Notes under the pieces: model-generated
Seen by the model: the letters and a program-made list of their open reading frames with translations, nothing else
The model's database searches: none
Told to the model about the DNA's origin: nothing
Shown here: positions 2,272 to 44,683 of the stretch, in pieces
Numbering within the stretch: the stretch's first letter is position 1
Layout: each line of letters begins with the position of its first letter
DNA from: Bacteroidaceae bacterium
GTDB lineage: Bacteria > Bacteroidota > Bacteroidia > Bacteroidales > Bacteroidaceae
Reading direction: 5' to 3'
Length of the DNA: 64,000 bases
NCBI GenBank assembly: GCA_024688885.1
Contig: JAILDV010000055.1
Coordinates: forward strand, 1-64,000
Translations under genes and position numbers: made by a program

Positions 2272-4176
2272 ATGATTTTCAACTATGATGTTGTGGTGGT
2301 GGGAGCGGGTCACGCTGGATGTGAGGCTGCTGCCGCTGCTGCTAATTTGGGTGCTCGGACGTGTCTCATCACGATGGACATGAACAAGATTGCACAGATG
2401 TCGTGCAATCCTGCCATTGGTGGTATTGCCAAAGGACAGATAGTGAGGGAGATTGATGCGTTGGGAGGATATACGGGTATCGTGACCGACCGTTGTAGCC
2501 TGCAATTCAGGATGTTAAATCTCTCAAAGGGTCCTGCAGTATGGAGTCCACGTTCACAGTGTGACCGTGCCAAGTTCATCTGGACATGGCGGGAGATACT
2601 GGAGAACACACCCAACTTGCAGATTTGGCAAGACCAAGCAAAAGATTTAGTTGTTGAAAATCAAGAAGTTCAAGGTGTAAAGACGTATTACGGAGCCGAG
2701 TTCAGAGCCCAATGTGTCATCATCACGGCAGGCACGTTTCTGAATGGGTTGATGCACATCGGCAGGGTGATGATACCTGGTGGAAGATGTGCCGAACTGC
2801 CAGCACTGGAACTGACAGAGAGCATCACGAAGCATGGCATCCGTGCTGGAAGAATGAAGACAGGAACCCCTGTGCGCATTGACAAGCGGAGCGTGGATTT
2901 TTCGCTGATGGAGAAACAGGATGGCGACCACGATTTTCACAAGTTCTCTTACCTGCCCACAGAGCGCACGTCAGTGTCGGAACGTAACAACCTCCCTTGC
3001 TGGATTTGCTACACCAACACCGAGGTACACGACGTGCTACGTTCGGGCCTCCCCGACTCTCCCCTTTATAATGGACAAATCCAGAGCATCGGACCTCGCT
3101 ATTGCCCAAGCATCGAGACCAAACTCCACACCTTCCCCGACAAGGACGAGCACATGTTGTTCTTGGAGCCTGAAGGAGAAACCACGAACGAGATGTACTT
3201 GAACGGCTTCTCGTCCTCTCTCCCCTTAGACATCCAGTTGACCGCCCTTCGCAAGATTCCTGCTTTTAAGCATTTGGAGGTTTATCGTCCCGGATATGCC
3301 ATCGAGTACGACTTCTTCGACCCCACTCAACTGACCCATTCCCTCGAATCGAAAGTGGTGAAAAACCTCTTCTTTGCAGGACAAGTGAACGGCACAACGG
3401 GTTATGAGGAAGCAGCAGGACAAGGTGTGATTGCGGGCATCAATGCTGCCATCAACTGCAACAAAACACTGAATGGTGGGGAGCCTTTCACGCTGGGCAG
3501 AAACGAAGCCTACATCGGTGTGCTTATCGACGACCTTGTGACGAAAGGAGTGGATGAGCCTTACCGCATGTTCACCTCACGTGCTGAATACCGCATTCTG
3601 TTGCGTCAAGACGATGCAGACATGCGTCTGACGGAACGCAGTTACAAGCTGGGCTTGGCAACTGAAGAGCGCTACCAGCTGATGCAAACCAAGAAGGCGA
3701 AAATCGATGCCATCATTGCGTTCGCATCAAACTTCTCCTTAAAACCTTCACTCATCAACCCTTCCTTGGAAACACTGGGCACCACCCCACTCCGCCAAGG
3801 ATGCAAGTTGGAGGAACTGTTGGGTCGCCCACAAATCAACATCAACAGCATCGCCCCACATATCGAACCTTTCCGCAAGGAACTGGAACGTATTCTCGGT
3901 GATGACATACGACGCGAGGAAATCATCGAAGCAGCAGAAATACAAATCAAATACAAGGGCTACATCTATCGCGAACAGCAGATGGCAGACAAGATGATTC
4001 GTTTGGAGAACATCAAGATTGCAGGCAAATTCGACTACCCCAACATGACACAAATCTCCATCGAAGCACGTCAGAAGCTGCAAGCCATACAGCCCGTCAC
4101 ACTGGCACAGGCTTCGCGCATTCCTGGGGTTTCACCTTCCGACATCAACATCATGTTGGTGCTGATGGGACGTTAA
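2272..4176 (+). CDS. mnmG: tRNA uridine-5-carboxymethylaminomethyl(34) synthesis enzyme MnmG
   Basis: 634 residues, the normal length for MnmG (GidA). Together with MnmE it installs the (carboxymethyl)aminomethyl group on U34 of tRNAs, using FAD and methylene-tetrahydrofolate. The N-terminus carries the FAD-binding GAGHAGCEAA motif (residues 11-20), then the family motifs CNPAIGGIAKG (about 45-55) and the second glycine-rich GYEEAAGQG stretch near residue 378. The C-terminal helical domain that contacts MnmE and tRNA is complete. The start is fixed by the promoter 21 bases upstream. gidA genes are often found near chromosomal origins, which fits the parS-type sites just downstream. Confidence 0.97.
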   Translation: MIFNYDVVVVGAGHAGCEAAAAAANLGARTCLITMDMNKIAQMSCNPAIGGIAKGQIVREIDALGGYTGIVTDRCSLQFRMLNLSKGPAVWSPRSQCDRAKFIWTWREILENTPNLQIWQDQAKDLVVENQEVQGVKTYYGAEFRAQCVIITAGTFLNGLMHIGRVMIPGGRCAELPALELTESITKHGIRAGRMKTGTPVRIDKRSVDFSLMEKQDGDHDFHKFSYLPTERTSVSERNNLPCWICYTNTEVHDVLRSGLPDSPLYNGQIQSIGPRYCPSIETKLHTFPDKDEHMLFLEPEGETTNEMYLNGFSSSLPLDIQLTALRKIPAFKHLEVYRPGYAIEYDFFDPTQLTHSLESKVVKNLFFAGQVNGTTGYEEAAGQGVIAGINAAINCNKTLNGGEPFTLGRNEAYIGVLIDDLVTKGVDEPYRMFTSRAEYRILLRQDDADMRLTERSYKLGLATEERYQLMQTKKAKIDAIIAFASNFSLKPSLINPSLETLGTTPLRQGCKLEELLGRPQININSIAPHIEPFRKELERILGDDIRREEIIEAAEIQIKYKGYIYREQQMADKMIRLENIKIAGKFDYPNMTQISIEARQKLQAIQPVTLAQASRIPGVSPSDINIMLVLMGR

Positions 4177-20947: not shown

Positions 20948-20973
20948 GGTTTAGGGTTTAGAGTTGAGAGTTA
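20926..20973. repeat. TTTAGGG/TTTAGAG tandem repeat
   Basis: Units of GTTTAGGGTTTAGA run from inside the 3' end of the fused hydrolase gene to 20973. They provide its last codons (S-L-G-F-R-V) and its stop. Confidence 0.85.
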
Positions 20974-20975
20974 CA

Positions 20976-21020
20976 CCCCGCATGGCTCTCCCTCCCCCTT
21001 GGGGGAGTTGGAGGGGGCTT
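20976..21020 (+). repeat. GC-rich palindromic element, half copy (intergenic)
   Basis: It holds CCGCATGGCTCTC followed by the palindrome TCCCCCTTGGGGGA and ends GGAGGGGGCTT. It is the right half of the 122-base element found inside leuS, and it lies between two convergent genes. Confidence 0.85.
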
Positions 21021-21023
21021 CAC

Positions 21024-25058: not shown

Positions 25059-25928
25059 ATGTTAGGTTATATTGATTGGCAGCCTTCGGTGGAGGCATTT
25101 TCATTGGGTTCGTATAGCGTGCGCTGGTATTCGCTGCTGTGGTGTGTGGGACTGTTGTGTGCCTACCTGATTGTGCAGCGTCTGTATAAGCATCAGAAGA
25201 TTGGGGAGGAGAAGTTTGAGCCACTGTTCTTCTATTGCTTTGTGGGGGTGCTGGTGGGTGCCCGATTGGGACATTGCATCTTTTATGAGCCAGGGTATTA
25301 CCTGACGAGCATGAAGGGTTTCATCGAGATGCTGATTCCGTTCCATCAGATGCCTGACGGGGCGTGGAAGTTCACGGGGTATGAGGGACTGGCATCGCAT
25401 GGCGGCACCATCGGTCTGATTGTGGCGATGATGCTGTATTGGCGCAAGATGAAGCTGAAGCCTTGGGTGGTGATGGACAACATCGCGATTTCGGTGCCTG
25501 CCACGGCTTGCTGCATCCGTCTGGGCAACTTGATGAATTCGGAGATTATCGGTAACCCCACCGATGTGGCTTGGGGCTTCATTTTCCATAGCAGGGAGGC
25601 ACTGGTGGACGGACAATTGGCACCGCGTCATCCTGCCCAGCTGTATGAGGCAATTGCCTACCTCATCATTTTCGTCGTAGGAGCGATGATTTATTGGCGG
25701 TGGTACAAGGTACAGGGTATGGCGGAAAAATCGCGTATAGCGGTCGGTACGGGCTTTTATTTCGGTTTCTGCCTCGCCACCATCTTCACTTTCCGCTTCT
25801 TCATCGAGTTCCTGAAGAAGGAACAGGTGAGTTTTGAAGAGGGAATGCTGTTGGATATGGGACAGCTGTTGAGCATCCCGTTTGTGGTGTTGGGAGTGTG
25901 GTGCATGGGAAGGAAAGGGAGGAGTTAA
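25059..25928 (+). CDS. lgt: Prolipoprotein diacylglyceryl transferase
   Basis: 289 residues with about seven hydrophobic segments. Lgt moves diacylglycerol from phosphatidylglycerol to the lipobox cysteine, the first step of lipoprotein maturation. It is an inner-membrane enzyme. Family motifs are GARLGHCIFYEP (about residue 68), HGGTIG (about 110), and the signature RLGNLMNSEIIG (about 152), which contains the essential Arg-x-Gly-Asn. Several lipoproteins in this window would be its substrates. The stop is followed at once by a palindromic repeat element. Confidence 0.95.
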   Translation: MLGYIDWQPSVEAFSLGSYSVRWYSLLWCVGLLCAYLIVQRLYKHQKIGEEKFEPLFFYCFVGVLVGARLGHCIFYEPGYYLTSMKGFIEMLIPFHQMPDGAWKFTGYEGLASHGGTIGLIVAMMLYWRKMKLKPWVVMDNIAISVPATACCIRLGNLMNSEIIGNPTDVAWGFIFHSREALVDGQLAPRHPAQLYEAIAYLIIFVVGAMIYWRWYKVQGMAEKSRIAVGTGFYFGFCLATIFTFRFFIEFLKKEQVSFEEGMLLDMGQLLSIPFVVLGVWCMGRKGRS

Positions 25929-26046
25929 GCCCCCTCCCCTTGCCGTCCTCAGAAAGGGCACTTTCTTCGGTCGCTCCCGACAGCGCAACATTTAGTTGCC
26001 CTATTTCACCGCTCGCTACCCCCAAGGGGGAGGGAGAGCCATGCGG
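25927..26046 (-). repeat. GC-rich palindromic element, rearranged copy (intergenic)
   Basis: It starts AAGCCCCCTCCCC and ends with the palindrome core CCCCCAAGGGGGAGGG and AGAGCCATGCGG, so both ends match the copy at 20976-21020 in reverse orientation. About 80 bases of unrelated sequence lie between the two parts, as if something inserted into the element. Together with the copy at 20976 it flanks the 21.0-26.0 kb segment as an inverted pair. Confidence 0.75.
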
Positions 26047-26051
26047 AGTGT

Positions 26052-40935: not shown

Positions 40936-41403
40936 TTAATCCCCCATCACCTTAACAATATCATCCATCGCAAAACCTCTTCCTAAAGCGAAACGAATCA
41001 GTTTACCTCTGATTTCATACTCGTTCCTTCCTTTCACAGAGGGGCGCTTCTTCTCTATCATTTCTTTCAGCGCATCCAGATTGTCCTTCTCGTCTATTTC
41101 CTCCAGAGCCTCATCGATATGTCGCTGTGCTATCTTCCTTCTTTTCAGTTCCTGTTCAATCCGCACTCTTCCCCAATGGTTGTAGCGGAACTTGTCCCTG
41201 ACAAACGCTTTGGCATAGCGTTCCTCATCAATAAACTTCTCCTTCACCAACCGAGCCACCACTCTTTCAGACACATCATCAGCCATTTCCCACCGCTTCA
41301 TTTTTGTCATCATGTCGTGGCAGCACTGTTCGCTCATAGCACACAGAGCAGAAAGCTTCTGATAAGCCTCCTGCTCTGTGTAAAGATGGGTTTTCTTTTC
41401 CAT
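40936..41403 (-). CDS. recX: Regulatory protein RecX
   Basis: 155 residues. RecX proteins bind RecA filaments and limit recombination. The family helical repeats are visible: RVVARLVKEKFIDEERYAKA (residues 46-65) with FVRDKFRYNHWG following, and a second repeat IAQRHIDEALEEIDE. recA itself is not in the window. It starts 3 bases after the leuS stop and is probably cotranscribed. Confidence 0.9.
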   Translation of the reverse strand: MEKKTHLYTEQEAYQKLSALCAMSEQCCHDMMTKMKRWEMADDVSERVVARLVKEKFIDEERYAKAFVRDKFRYNHWGRVRIEQELKRRKIAQRHIDEALEEIDEKDNLDALKEMIEKKRPSVKGRNEYEIRGKLIRFALGRGFAMDDIVKVMGD

Positions 41404-41406
41404 CAG

Positions 41407-44400
41407 TTATTTCTTCAAAACTACATTGATCATCTTACCTGGCACCACGATGACTTTCGCCACGGTGAATCCTTCCATCCACTTGGCTGACTGTGGGTTT
41501 TCAAGGGCAGCTTTTTCGGCATCCTCCTTCGTCACATCAGCAGGAAACTCCAGTGGGAAGCGTGCCTTACCGTTGAATGCCACCATCATCTTCACCGAGT
41601 CTTCCTTCAGATAATCCTCGTTGAAAGCTGGCCAAGGAGCGTCACATACCGTGGTCGTGTGACCGAGCAGGTGCCAGAACTCTTCTGCCAAGTGAGGACA
41701 GAATGGAGCCAACAAGATGGCAAGTGTCTCCTTCACTTCACGGCTCTCACTCTTCAACTTCGTCAGTTCGTTCAGGCAGACCATGAACGCTGCAATGGTT
41801 GTGTTGTATGAGAATGCCTCAATGTCAGCAGTCTCTTTCTTGATGAGGGTGTGCAGTGCCTTGAGTTCCTCCTTAGAAGCCCCCACCGTCTCCCCCAAGG
41901 GGGAGTGATTGCCATCCGGGTTGTTAGCCGTTTGATTGTCTGTTGAGGAGCAAGCCGCATGGGACTCCTCCCCCTTGGGGGAGGTTGGGAGGGGGCTTGT
42001 CATGAACTTCCACAATTTCTTCAGGAATCTGTGGCAGCCGTCAATGCCATTGGTGTCCCAAGGCTTGCTCTGCTCCACAGGACCGAGGAACATTTCGTAG
42101 AGACGCAATGTGTCAGCACCGAACTTCTCCACGATCATGTCGGGGTTCACCACGTTGAACATGCTCTTCGACATCTTCTCCACAGCCCATCCGCACACAT
42201 ACTTTCCTTCGTCGTTGAGAATGAATTCGGCGGTGTTGTATTCTGGACGCCAAGCCTTGAACGCCTCAACATCCAGCACATCAGCACTCACGATGTTCAC
42301 ATCCACATGGATGGGTGTAACATCATACTGGTCTTTCTTCTCCAAGGTCACAAACGTATTCGTGTCTTTGATGCGATACACGAAATTGCTCCTTCCTTGA
42401 ATCATGCCCTGATTGATGAGCTTCTGGAAGGGTTCTTCCTTGCAAGATACACCCAAGTCAAACAGGAACTTGTTCCAGAAACGGCTGTAAATCAGGTGAC
42501 CTGTAGCATGCTCACTACCACCCACATACAAGTCCACATTCTGCCAATACTCGTCAGCATCCTTGCTCACCAGCGCTTGGTCATTGTGTGGGTCCATATA
42601 GCGCAGGTAGTAAGCAGAACTGCCCGCAAAGCCTGGCATCGTGTAGAGTTCAATAGGGAACACTGTCTTGTTGTCTATCTTCTTATTCTCCACAATCTTC
42701 TTGTTCACCTCATCCCATGCCCACACGGTAGCGTTGCCCAGTGGTGGCTCACCTGTCTCTGTAGGCAGGAACTTATCCACTTCAGGCAATTCGATAGGCA
42801 GGCATTCCTCAGGAATCATCGTCGGGATGCCGTTCTTGTAATATACAGGGAATGGCTCACCCCAATAGCGCTGACGGGAGAAGATGGCATCTCTCAGACG
42901 GTAGTTCACCTTCACACGACCAATGCCCGCCTCCTTCACATACTTCTTCGTGGCAGCAATCGCTTCCTTCACGGTCAGTCCGTTGAGGCTGAAATCAATG
43001 TAAGGCTTCACATCCTTTCGTGGTGAGTTGCATACAATTCCCTCCTTGGCATCGTAGCTCTCCTCGCTCACATCAGCCCCCTCAATCAGTGGGATGATGG
43101 GCAGACCGAAGTGCTTTGCAAACGCATAGTCACGGCTGTCATGCGCAGGCACTGCCATGATGGCACCCGTACCATAACCAGCCAACACATACTCTGAAAT
43201 CCAGATAGGGTTCTTCTCGCCTGTGAAAGGATTGATGGCATACGAACCTGAGAACACACCTGTCACCTTGTGGTCAATCATGCGTTCACGCTCCGTACGT
43301 CCCTTCACATACTTGATATATTCCTCTACGGCAGCCTTCTGCTCCGCTGTGGTCACTTTCTCCACCAGTTCACTCTCAGGAGCCAGTACCATGAACGTCA
43401 CACCAAACATCGTGTCGGCACGAGTCGTGAAGATAGTGAAGGAAGCCCCCTCCGTCTCCCCCAAGGGGGAGTGATTGCCATCCGGGTTGTTAGCCGTTAG
43501 ATTTTCTGTTGAGGAGCAAGCCGCATGGGACTCCTCCCCCTTGGGGGAGGTTGGGAGGGGGCTTGCAATCTTGAATTGCACTTCCGTACCCTCCGAACGA
43601 CCTATCCAGTTCTTCTGTGTTTCCTTGATGCTGTCGCTCCACTCTATCGTGTCCAGTCCGTCCAAGAGTCGCTGTGCATAGGCACTCACCCTCAGGCACC
43701 ACTGCCTCATCTTCTTCTGCTCCACAGGGAAGCCGCCGCGCACACTCACGCCGTCAACTACCTCGTCATTCGCCAGCACAGTGCCCAGTCCTGCACACCA
43801 GTTCACCATCGTCTCGCCCATGAAGGCGATGCGGTAGTTCATCAGCACGTCGCTCTTCTTCTTCTCGTCCCACGAGTTCCACTCCTCTGCAGTGAACATG
43901 AGATTTTCCGTCTGAGCCACACCAAAATCCTCCAGTCCTTCCGTACCCTTCTGCTCAAAAAAATCCACCAGCTCCTCGATAGGACGAGCCTTTCCAGCCG
44001 CATGGCTCTCCTCCCCCTTGGGGGAGGTTGGGAGGGGGCTTTTACTAAAGAACGAGCCAAACATCTTCTGGAAAGCCCATTGCGTCCACTTGTAATAGCC
44101 AGGAGCACACGTCCTCACCTCCCTGTCCCAATCGAAGCAGAAGCCAATCTTGTCCAGCTGTTCACGATAGCGGTCAATATTCTGGAAGGTGGTCTTCTCA
44201 GGGTGCTGACCTGTCTGAATGGCATACTGCTCAGCAGGCAGACCATAAGCGTCATAACCCATCGGGTTCAGCACGTTATATCCCTGCAGACGCTTGAAAC
44301 GAGCATAGATGTCACTTGCAATATAGCCCAGCGGGTGTCCAACATGCAATCCCGCCCCGCTCGGATAAGGGAACATGTTCAGCACGTAAAACTTGGGTTT

Positions 44401-44487
44401 GCTCTTATCTTCAGCAACCTGATAGGTCTTCTCCTCCACCCACTTCTGTTGCCATTTCTGCTCAATCTCTCTAAAATTGTATTCCAT
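41407..44487 (-). CDS. leuS: Leucyl-tRNA synthetase carrying three repeat-derived insertions
   Basis: 1026 residues, about 80-100 longer than Bacteroides LeuS as I recall it. It charges tRNA(Leu). The catalytic signatures HVGH (residues 48-51) and KMSKS (about 770) are intact, as is the editing-domain TRADT motif (about 353). The extra length is explained by three in-frame copies of one palindromic DNA element at residues about 149-164, 308-349 and 830-871. All three are read in the same frame and begin [15 protein letters not shown]. None breaks the frame. A -7 box lies 29 bases upstream; recX follows after 3 bases. Confidence 0.96.
41877..41998 (-). repeat. GC-rich palindromic element, full copy in leuS (A)
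   Basis: 122 bases, bounded by AAGCCCCC and GGGGGCTT. Two inner palindromes (TCTCCCCCAAGGGGGAG and CTCCCCCTTGGGGGAG) flank a single-copy middle of about 65 bases. It differs from copy B at about three positions. It encodes about 41 residues of LeuS between the anticodon-domain segment FLKKLWKF and EELKALHTL. Confidence 0.95.
43443..43564 (-). repeat. GC-rich palindromic element, full copy in leuS (B)
   Basis: 122 bases, about 97% identical to copy A by eye. It lies in the editing (CP1) domain just before [13 protein letters not shown]. Same orientation and reading frame as copy A. Confidence 0.95.
43996..44042 (-). repeat. GC-rich palindromic element, half copy in leuS (C)
   Basis: About 46 bases, holding only the right half: AGCCGCATGGCTCTC, the palindrome CCTCCCCCTTGGGGGAGG and the GGGAGGGGGCTT end. 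It encodes [15 protein letters not shown] after FGSFFSK. Its CATGGCTCTC resembles the intergenic copies at 20976 and 25927 more than copies A and B (CATGGGACTC). Confidence 0.93.
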
Positions 44488-44515
44488 TGTTTTAGTTCAA
44501 TTTTCAAATTTGAGT

Positions 44516-44524: not shown

Positions 44525-44607
44525 CAAAATAAAAATGAAGAAATGAAAAGAATGAGAAAAAAGAAGGTTGCGGCACAGCGCAACCCTCATTTACTTCAAT
44601 AACTTAT

Positions 44608-44683
44608 ATTTATCATTTATCAATTATCATTTATCAATTATCATTTATCAATTATCAATTATCATTTATCATTTAGCGCAGCG
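44608..44683. repeat. TTATCAATTATCATT repeat block
   Basis: About nine alternating TTATCATT/TATCAATT units are followed by ATTTAGCGCAGCGC. It ends at the SGNH hydrolase stop codon. Confidence 0.8.

Follow-up and report, generated by a model that had tools for sequence, protein, structure and literature searches.

Short palindromic DNA elements were found in frame within leuS, the leucyl-tRNA synthetase gene of a Bacteroidaceae bacterium, and within other protein genes of the same genome. Copies occur genome-wide with a common repeat anatomy, and most of the relatives examined lack them. Several families were found at the same loops, and both orientations at one loop. It is reasonable to consider the element a short, non-autonomous mobile palindrome, of which the copies within genes very probably survive where they stay in frame in a tolerant loop, and are most likely translated. 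Palindromic inserts in leuS had been described in the original prediction, made from the DNA letters; that observation was confirmed, and its interpretation is supported.

The inserts in leuS

The window, i.e., the whole analysed stretch of 64,000 nucleotides, holds the features given below. The leuS gene sits within a 119,633-base contig (C67) of a 3.03 Mb draft genome, which is 98% complete. The inserts were lettered A (the half element), B, and C in leuS coding order.

41407..44487, (-) strand: leuS, leucyl-tRNA synthetase, host of the three inserts; 1026 aa, open frame with HVGH and KMSKS
43996..44041, (-) strand: insert A, half element with one hairpin and GCCATGCGGCT; aa 150-164
43442..43565, (-) strand: insert B, full element with terminal inverted repeats, two hairpins, and a spacer; aa 309-348
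41876..41999, (-) strand: insert C, full element, 98% identity to B; aa 831-870
20973..21021, (+) strand: solo half element of the same family, intergenic
25927..26051 (end approximate), (+) strand: half element of the same family, intergenic, interrupted by about 80 nt of other sequence

The leuS product showed leucyl-tRNA synthetase 1h3n as its top PDB match (E 3e-169), and the gene stays open with both motifs, as had been predicted. The prediction of two 122-base copies with about 97% identity and one half copy was right as to the copies; the full ones are direct repeats of 124 nt each with 98% identity. Insert A is a 46-nt half copy with 96% identity to the corresponding part of the full copies, and it encodes a 15-residue peptide. 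All three blocks have one orientation and one reading frame in leuS and open with this same peptide, which agrees with the prediction. The intergenic relatives placed at 20976 and 25927 were also recovered, the latter as a split copy. The interruption in this split copy ends in ..CACCGCTCGCT, and a near copy of part of it flanks the copies at 3094 and 9667 of another locus (L129), in opposite orientation. Short tandem ATTTATCAATTATC units at 44594-44675 separate leuS from its neighbour gene.

The element has the ends AAGCCCCC/GGGGGCTT, two hairpins, and a central CCATCCGGATGG. Twelve compact copies were aligned as AGCCCCCTCCCATCCTCCCCCAAAGGGGAGG..CCATCCGGATGG..CCCCCCTTGGGGGG..GAGGGGGGCT, in which the ends pair and the hairpins are paired. 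In the consensus of these copies the terminal inverted repeats AGCCCCC and GGGGGCT pair with each other, as in MITEs. The compact form has about 80 nt, and longer forms carry a central spacer, which in leuS is placed within the central palindrome.

As RNA, the two full leuS copies fold as a single long hairpin at -75.2 and -70.4 kcal/mol (z -7.6 and -7.0), and none of 200 shuffles folded as low. Half copy A alone was unremarkable (z -1.2; 23/200 shuffles fold at least as well). A search of positions 41400-44500 with RNA family models returned only two microRNA models, far below their thresholds (31/142 and 23.3/65 bits). That an essential mRNA with a hairpin near -75 kcal/mol is translated smoothly is less obvious.

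In the AlphaFold2 model of LeuS (mean pLDDT 75.5, 34 sequences), residues 310-346 of insert B are predicted as coil with pLDDT <50 between strands 297-308 and 349-354. Residues 835-867 of insert C are likewise predicted as coil with pLDDT <50, between helices 812-830 and 872-890. Both full inserts are thus modelled in loops between secondary-structure elements, and insert A is not low-confidence in the model. In the 1h3n alignment, the segments 148-237 and 243-877 are matched and insert B is located between them; insert C comes after KMSKS. We take B to lie close to where the editing domain begins.

LeuS was searched in 101 genomes, each of which gave at least some match. Five genomes of the genus (G001, G005, G013, G014, G027) and one of the order (G070) had a weak match only, and therefore were counted as not LeuS. 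The alignment comprised 27 same-genus loci among 30 returned, from a genus of 45 genomes. In agreement with the original prediction, the blocks are absent in most relatives examined, i.e., 20 of the 27 carry no palindrome at A, B, or C. All three inserts were found in the own genome (G000) and in G003. Outside the own genome, the F1 form of insert A was present in G003 and G038 only among the 27. G038 also has a different small palindrome at B (AGCCCAAGCGCTGGGCGTC..., L012), outside the described families. G002 carries a shorter insert B, and a different family occupies site C in G036, G041, and G007, the last with a diverged insert at A as well. Near site A, G002, G025, G010, and G011 (L011, L020, L022, and L023) have in common a distinct segment, FFCLKEQKA..PIEKLIQRFETKGT.SDDGGTVQVAC. 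This segment conflicts with the tree, a sign of core-gene recombination between species.

The nearest named LeuS records were uncultured Prevotellaceae or Bacteroidaceae bacteria or bins, and many of their titles indicate ruminants. Recent duplication within leuS alone was considered as a source of the inserts and rejected, because the B copies of two species are orthologous, as are their C copies.

Copies in other genes and genomes

The palindrome core TCCCCCNNGGGGGA was found at 39 places in the 3.03 Mb genome and its reversed control at none; with the fold scores of the full copies, this shows that the repeats are not chance. In the genome stretches fetched around the matches and the leuS locus, at least 45 copy clusters were counted, 29 within open frames and 16 outside; this is a lower bound, with at least two further weak places (C61:18663 and C31:19140). 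Four of the in-frame clusters (L122, L124 at 3017, L142, and L127 at 8658) were dropped because the element precedes the likely start or the ORF is short, which left 25 accepted copies in 21 genes. The element is therefore not unique to leuS, in line with the prediction. These 25 copies were chosen by a spanning open frame, and frame-shifted insertions would fall among the 16 outside clusters.

Several copies are carried by leuS (3), murF-alr (2), and argC (2); of the argC pair, one copy is at the very N-terminus and may be untranslated. Single copies were found in alaS, pyrG, trpA, recO, a DPP IV peptidase, an M20 peptidase, a methylase-CbiC fusion, a GH95 enzyme, an FeS assembly protein, a dicarboxylate symporter, a topoisomerase, a sigma-54 regulator, a laccase-family protein, and five others. 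Names such as argC and murF-alr were read from Pfam hits and sequence, and trpA from sequence alone. In a Pfam scan of 20 copy-bearing proteins, 19 matched a family at E <=1e-3 and 17 exceeded the curated cut-off. Domains running across the insert include CTP_synth_N, tRNA-synt_2c, DPPIV_N, Topoisom_bac, and RecO_C.

In the 12 compact copies, 59 of 72 frames are stop-free vs 53% in shuffles (script recheck), and the two long leuS copies are stop-free in only 1/6 and 2/6 frames. Hairpins within genes are read as S-P-x-G in 36/46, L/I-P in 7/46, and P-P in 3/46, counts in which the hairpins of one element are not independent and three come from the dropped cluster of L127 at 8658 (35/43 for S-P-x-G without them). 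The S-P-x-G bias is what selection against other frames would give, and the few open frames of the long copies imply that stops force part of it. When empty and filled alleles were compared by eye, no clear target-site duplication was found. In filled loops the insert also takes the place of a few to about 13 native residues, so the insertion is not clean.

For murF-alr, alaS, trpA, and pyrG, 45 genomes were searched and 30 loci each were aligned. The corresponding loops are palindrome-free in most aligned loci and hold other families in some; the insert is absent in 26/30 alaS loci, and the F1 insert in 24/30 trpA loci. Loss of an ancestral loop by the relatives was judged unlikely, since most LeuS, AlaS, TrpA, and PyrG examined are without the loop, LeuS also outside the genus. 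Different palindromic families occupy one loop in pyrG, in murF loops 1 and 2, in alaS, and at leuS site C, where the families per site and the tree states were assigned by eye and by hand. In pyrG of G003, one family is apparently nested inside another. At the GH95 site, the element of G036 has the orientation opposite to that in G038, G025, and G000 (71/82 positions identical when reversed, 62/85 when direct).

Three further loci showed unusual sequences. G044 has short tandem repeats (CTCACACCTCACACC) at the CTP synthase site (pyrG, L258) where others have palindromes. The trpA gene of G022 (L227) has a short loop, AGCACTCCCCCTTCGGAGGTTGGGGGGCTT, a possible remnant of a fourth-family palindrome. 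The M20 peptidase of G003 (L296) has an F1 insert in common with the own genome and an apparent F2 start further on (LSPTLPH).

A covariance model of the compact form, used with stricter filters, matched 34/45 genomes of the genus and 50/151 genomes of the family, in 12/30 genera, with the own genome counted in both. The own genome has the most matches, i.e., 55 with both strands counted. A second family matched 30/45 genus genomes. Two families thus have many matches in the genus, and two more were found at murF, alaS, and pyrG. Strong matches occur beyond the genus; the sole locus checked for gene context there, L297, has no spanning frame by the thresholds used. Carriage by plasmids or phages was rejected on a search with a single compact copy of 81 bases, for which 72,556 plasmid and 50,697 phage records gave no match at E 1e-3; no LeuS relatives were found in viral contigs.

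Divergence, age, and proposed movement of the inserts

It is reasonable to propose that copies of the element land at many places in the genome, and that within protein genes only the frame-keeping copies in tolerant loops would survive. These copies would most likely be translated as a disordered loop, with a presumably neutral effect on the host enzymes. Movement would depend on an enzyme acting in trans, which was not found in a search that covered the RAYT domain, and we know of no transposase linked to the element ends. As the insert sequences appear much younger than their flanks, a second layer may exist, in which exchange limited to the element would keep the in-place copies alike between species.

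A comparison of G000 with G003 showed 7/285 differing bases in the leuS inserts (dS 0.029, dN 0.024) and 330/2793 in the rest of leuS (dS 0.78, dN 0.021). Over five genes with F1 and F2 inserts, the insert was less diverged than fourfold sites in 42/43 comparisons, which share species and are not independent. The exception is murF loop 2 in G038 vs G025 (insert 5/72, fourfold sites 0.03). Third positions differ at 18/394 in the inserts, at 25/130 in the first five codons outside, and at 22/130 in the next five, i.e., 17-19% in the first ten codons, vs 27-29% further out; one of the 14 pairs, L253-L257 of pyrG, was dropped because it was misaligned at a gap (31/87; realigned 1/99). Less alike are the inserts of the trpA pairs with G038 (13-18/81), the F2 inserts of murF loop 2 (17-24/~102), and the F2 pair at leuS site C (16/124). 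The low insert divergence and the jump at the edge indicate that the inserts are either younger than the genes or constrained at the nucleotide level.

Recent spread inside leuS had been proposed from the similarity of the copies. Two sites tell copy B from copy C in both G000 and G003, so both full copies predate the split from G003, and the proposed timing needs correction. The two full copies are nevertheless far less diverged than the surrounding gene.

Exchange between species limited to the element, in which related elements convert the filled alleles or enter the empty ones in a homing-like manner, would make the insert younger than its flanks. This reading is a tentative one. It agrees with the near identity of the leuS inserts beside a dS of 0.78 in the remaining gene, and with the step in third-position differences at the element edge, which speaks against plain homologous transfer of the region. 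Carriers were also patchy in a FastTree of five genes from 30 genomes. G025, the sister of G000, is without the leuS and alaS inserts, but has the murF and trpA inserts in common. In trpA, G011 and G025 have inserts with 2/120 differing bases, while G010, the sister of G011, is without one. However, among the 45 genomes the only close matches to the leuS spacer are in leuS itself, in two genomes. Outside leuS no close donor was found, only weak matches of 17-40 bases, a result that speaks against fresh insertion from some other locus. No enzyme is known to us for such exchange, and with the apparent core-gene recombination in the genus, the 17-19% divergence near the edge also fits short homologous tracts. 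A stronger form is possible but doubtful: in a homing-like drive, palindromes may enter and re-convert the same loops across species, with the tract ending at the element edges, and the inserts would be several to about thirty times younger than their host genes.

A functional hairpin, acting in mRNA stability, pausing, or DNA structure, would instead make the inserts old and hold them by constraint at the nucleotide level. Paired positions are indeed less variable (31/943) than unpaired ones (38/458) over 15 partly dependent comparisons, the divergence of the murF loop 1 insert rises with that of the gene, and the full copies fold very stably. However, the unpaired bases are also far below the divergence of fourfold sites, and only two double changes were counted. 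Most relatives examined manage without the element, and different families occupy one loop. The similar dN and dS of the leuS inserts are predicted by both codon-blind constraint and recency. Constraint is rather unlikely as the main cause, and we lean to element-limited exchange, with part of the hairpin conservation coming from structure.

Ordinary REP or BIME repeats mobilised by a RAYT transposase are an improbable source. The elements are GC-rich, short, paired palindromes within and between genes, like the REPs in the available part of PMC3733652, and copy-rich G003 has a partial match to the RAYT domain (PF01797, Y1_Tnp) above the cut-off (29.9 bits, positions 40-120); partial matches above the cut-off occur in G005 and G008 as well. 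However, no RAYT above the cut-off was found in the own 98% complete draft genome, which has two partial PF01797 matches below it. RAYT as the mobiliser was rejected, since across 45 genomes, 28 of them of the genus, PF01797 does not follow copy number. Full-length PF01797 occurs in G004, G015, G019, and G024, which have 5, 36, 5, and 0 element matches, and G014, G013, and G002, with 40, 30, and 26 matches, have none. GTAG is absent in 12/12 aligned copies, and CGTC was seen on one strand in 6/12, not conserved and mostly within the central palindrome.

Ribosome bypass or RNA excision would leave the palindrome untranslated, like the bypassed palindromic elements of Magnusiomyces mitochondria mentioned in the accessible text of PMC6649704. 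The hairpin is very stable, but the open frame and the frame preference of the compact copies would not be needed if it were skipped, and this reading is very improbable. A repeat-assembly artefact is hardly credible: the named records that carry leuS F1 inserts are without exception uncultured or bins, and several copies are close to contig ends, but leuS is inside its long contig, its spacer has close matches in leuS only, and the same inserts recur in separately published genomes, bins of different sources (among 80 named LeuS loci, all three F1 blocks in L083 and one each in L039 and L040).

Comparison with known palindromic repeats

MITEs are short and gene-free, with terminal inverted repeats and many copies. 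The present element is short, has terminal inverted repeats, carries no gene, and is multi-copy; no target-site duplication was recognized here in the alleles compared by eye. In Nematomorpha mitochondria, according to the portion of PMC6649704 available, inverted repeats in protein genes are gained and lost between species; they are long and perfect, and are set apart there from the Rickettsia kind. The present inserts are likewise inverted repeats in protein genes that vary between species, but those of Nematomorpha are mitochondrial and long perfect repeats. The repeat of Prevotella intermedia, as far as described in the available part of PMC4755523, is without terminal inverted repeats, and therefore is a different thing.

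Intragenic REP repeats and dimers of the GTAG/CGTC families occur in genes including tRNA synthetases, and a REP lies in recB at nearly the same site in two Xanthomonas species (available part of PMC3733652). The present elements are similar in being hairpin repeats and dimers within genes. They differ in having no conserved GTAG/CGTC tag and no RAYT above the cut-off in the own genome, and in that terminal inverted repeats hold two hairpins together as a single element.

In the accessible parts of PMC10969869 and PMC3733652, discussion of palindromes that lie in frame in protein genes centres on Rickettsia, and REP cases are scattered among other bacteria. In the open PMC literature, no title or abstract among the matches listed describes them in Prevotella or other Bacteroidales. 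The Rickettsia palindromic elements (RPE) are palindromes of about 150 bp in several families, in frame in unrelated protein genes, as given in the same partial sources (PMC10969869, PMC3733652). The parallel to RPE drawn in the original prediction holds in anatomy and location: palindromic repeats lie in frame in many unrelated genes, here 25 copies in 21 genes, with several families within one genus. This likeness is one of description. Unlike RPE, the present elements belong to another phylum, Bacteroidota; one loop takes several families and one site both orientations, and the inserts are near-identical between species with 40% divergence at the fourfold sites of their genes. RPE-like insertion of several families is found here in gut Bacteroidota, whose genomes have about 3 Mb and for which many relatives have been sequenced. 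These features make testable how such elements move, whether essential proteins gain loops from selfish DNA, and whether an element can spread between species while the surrounding gene does not.
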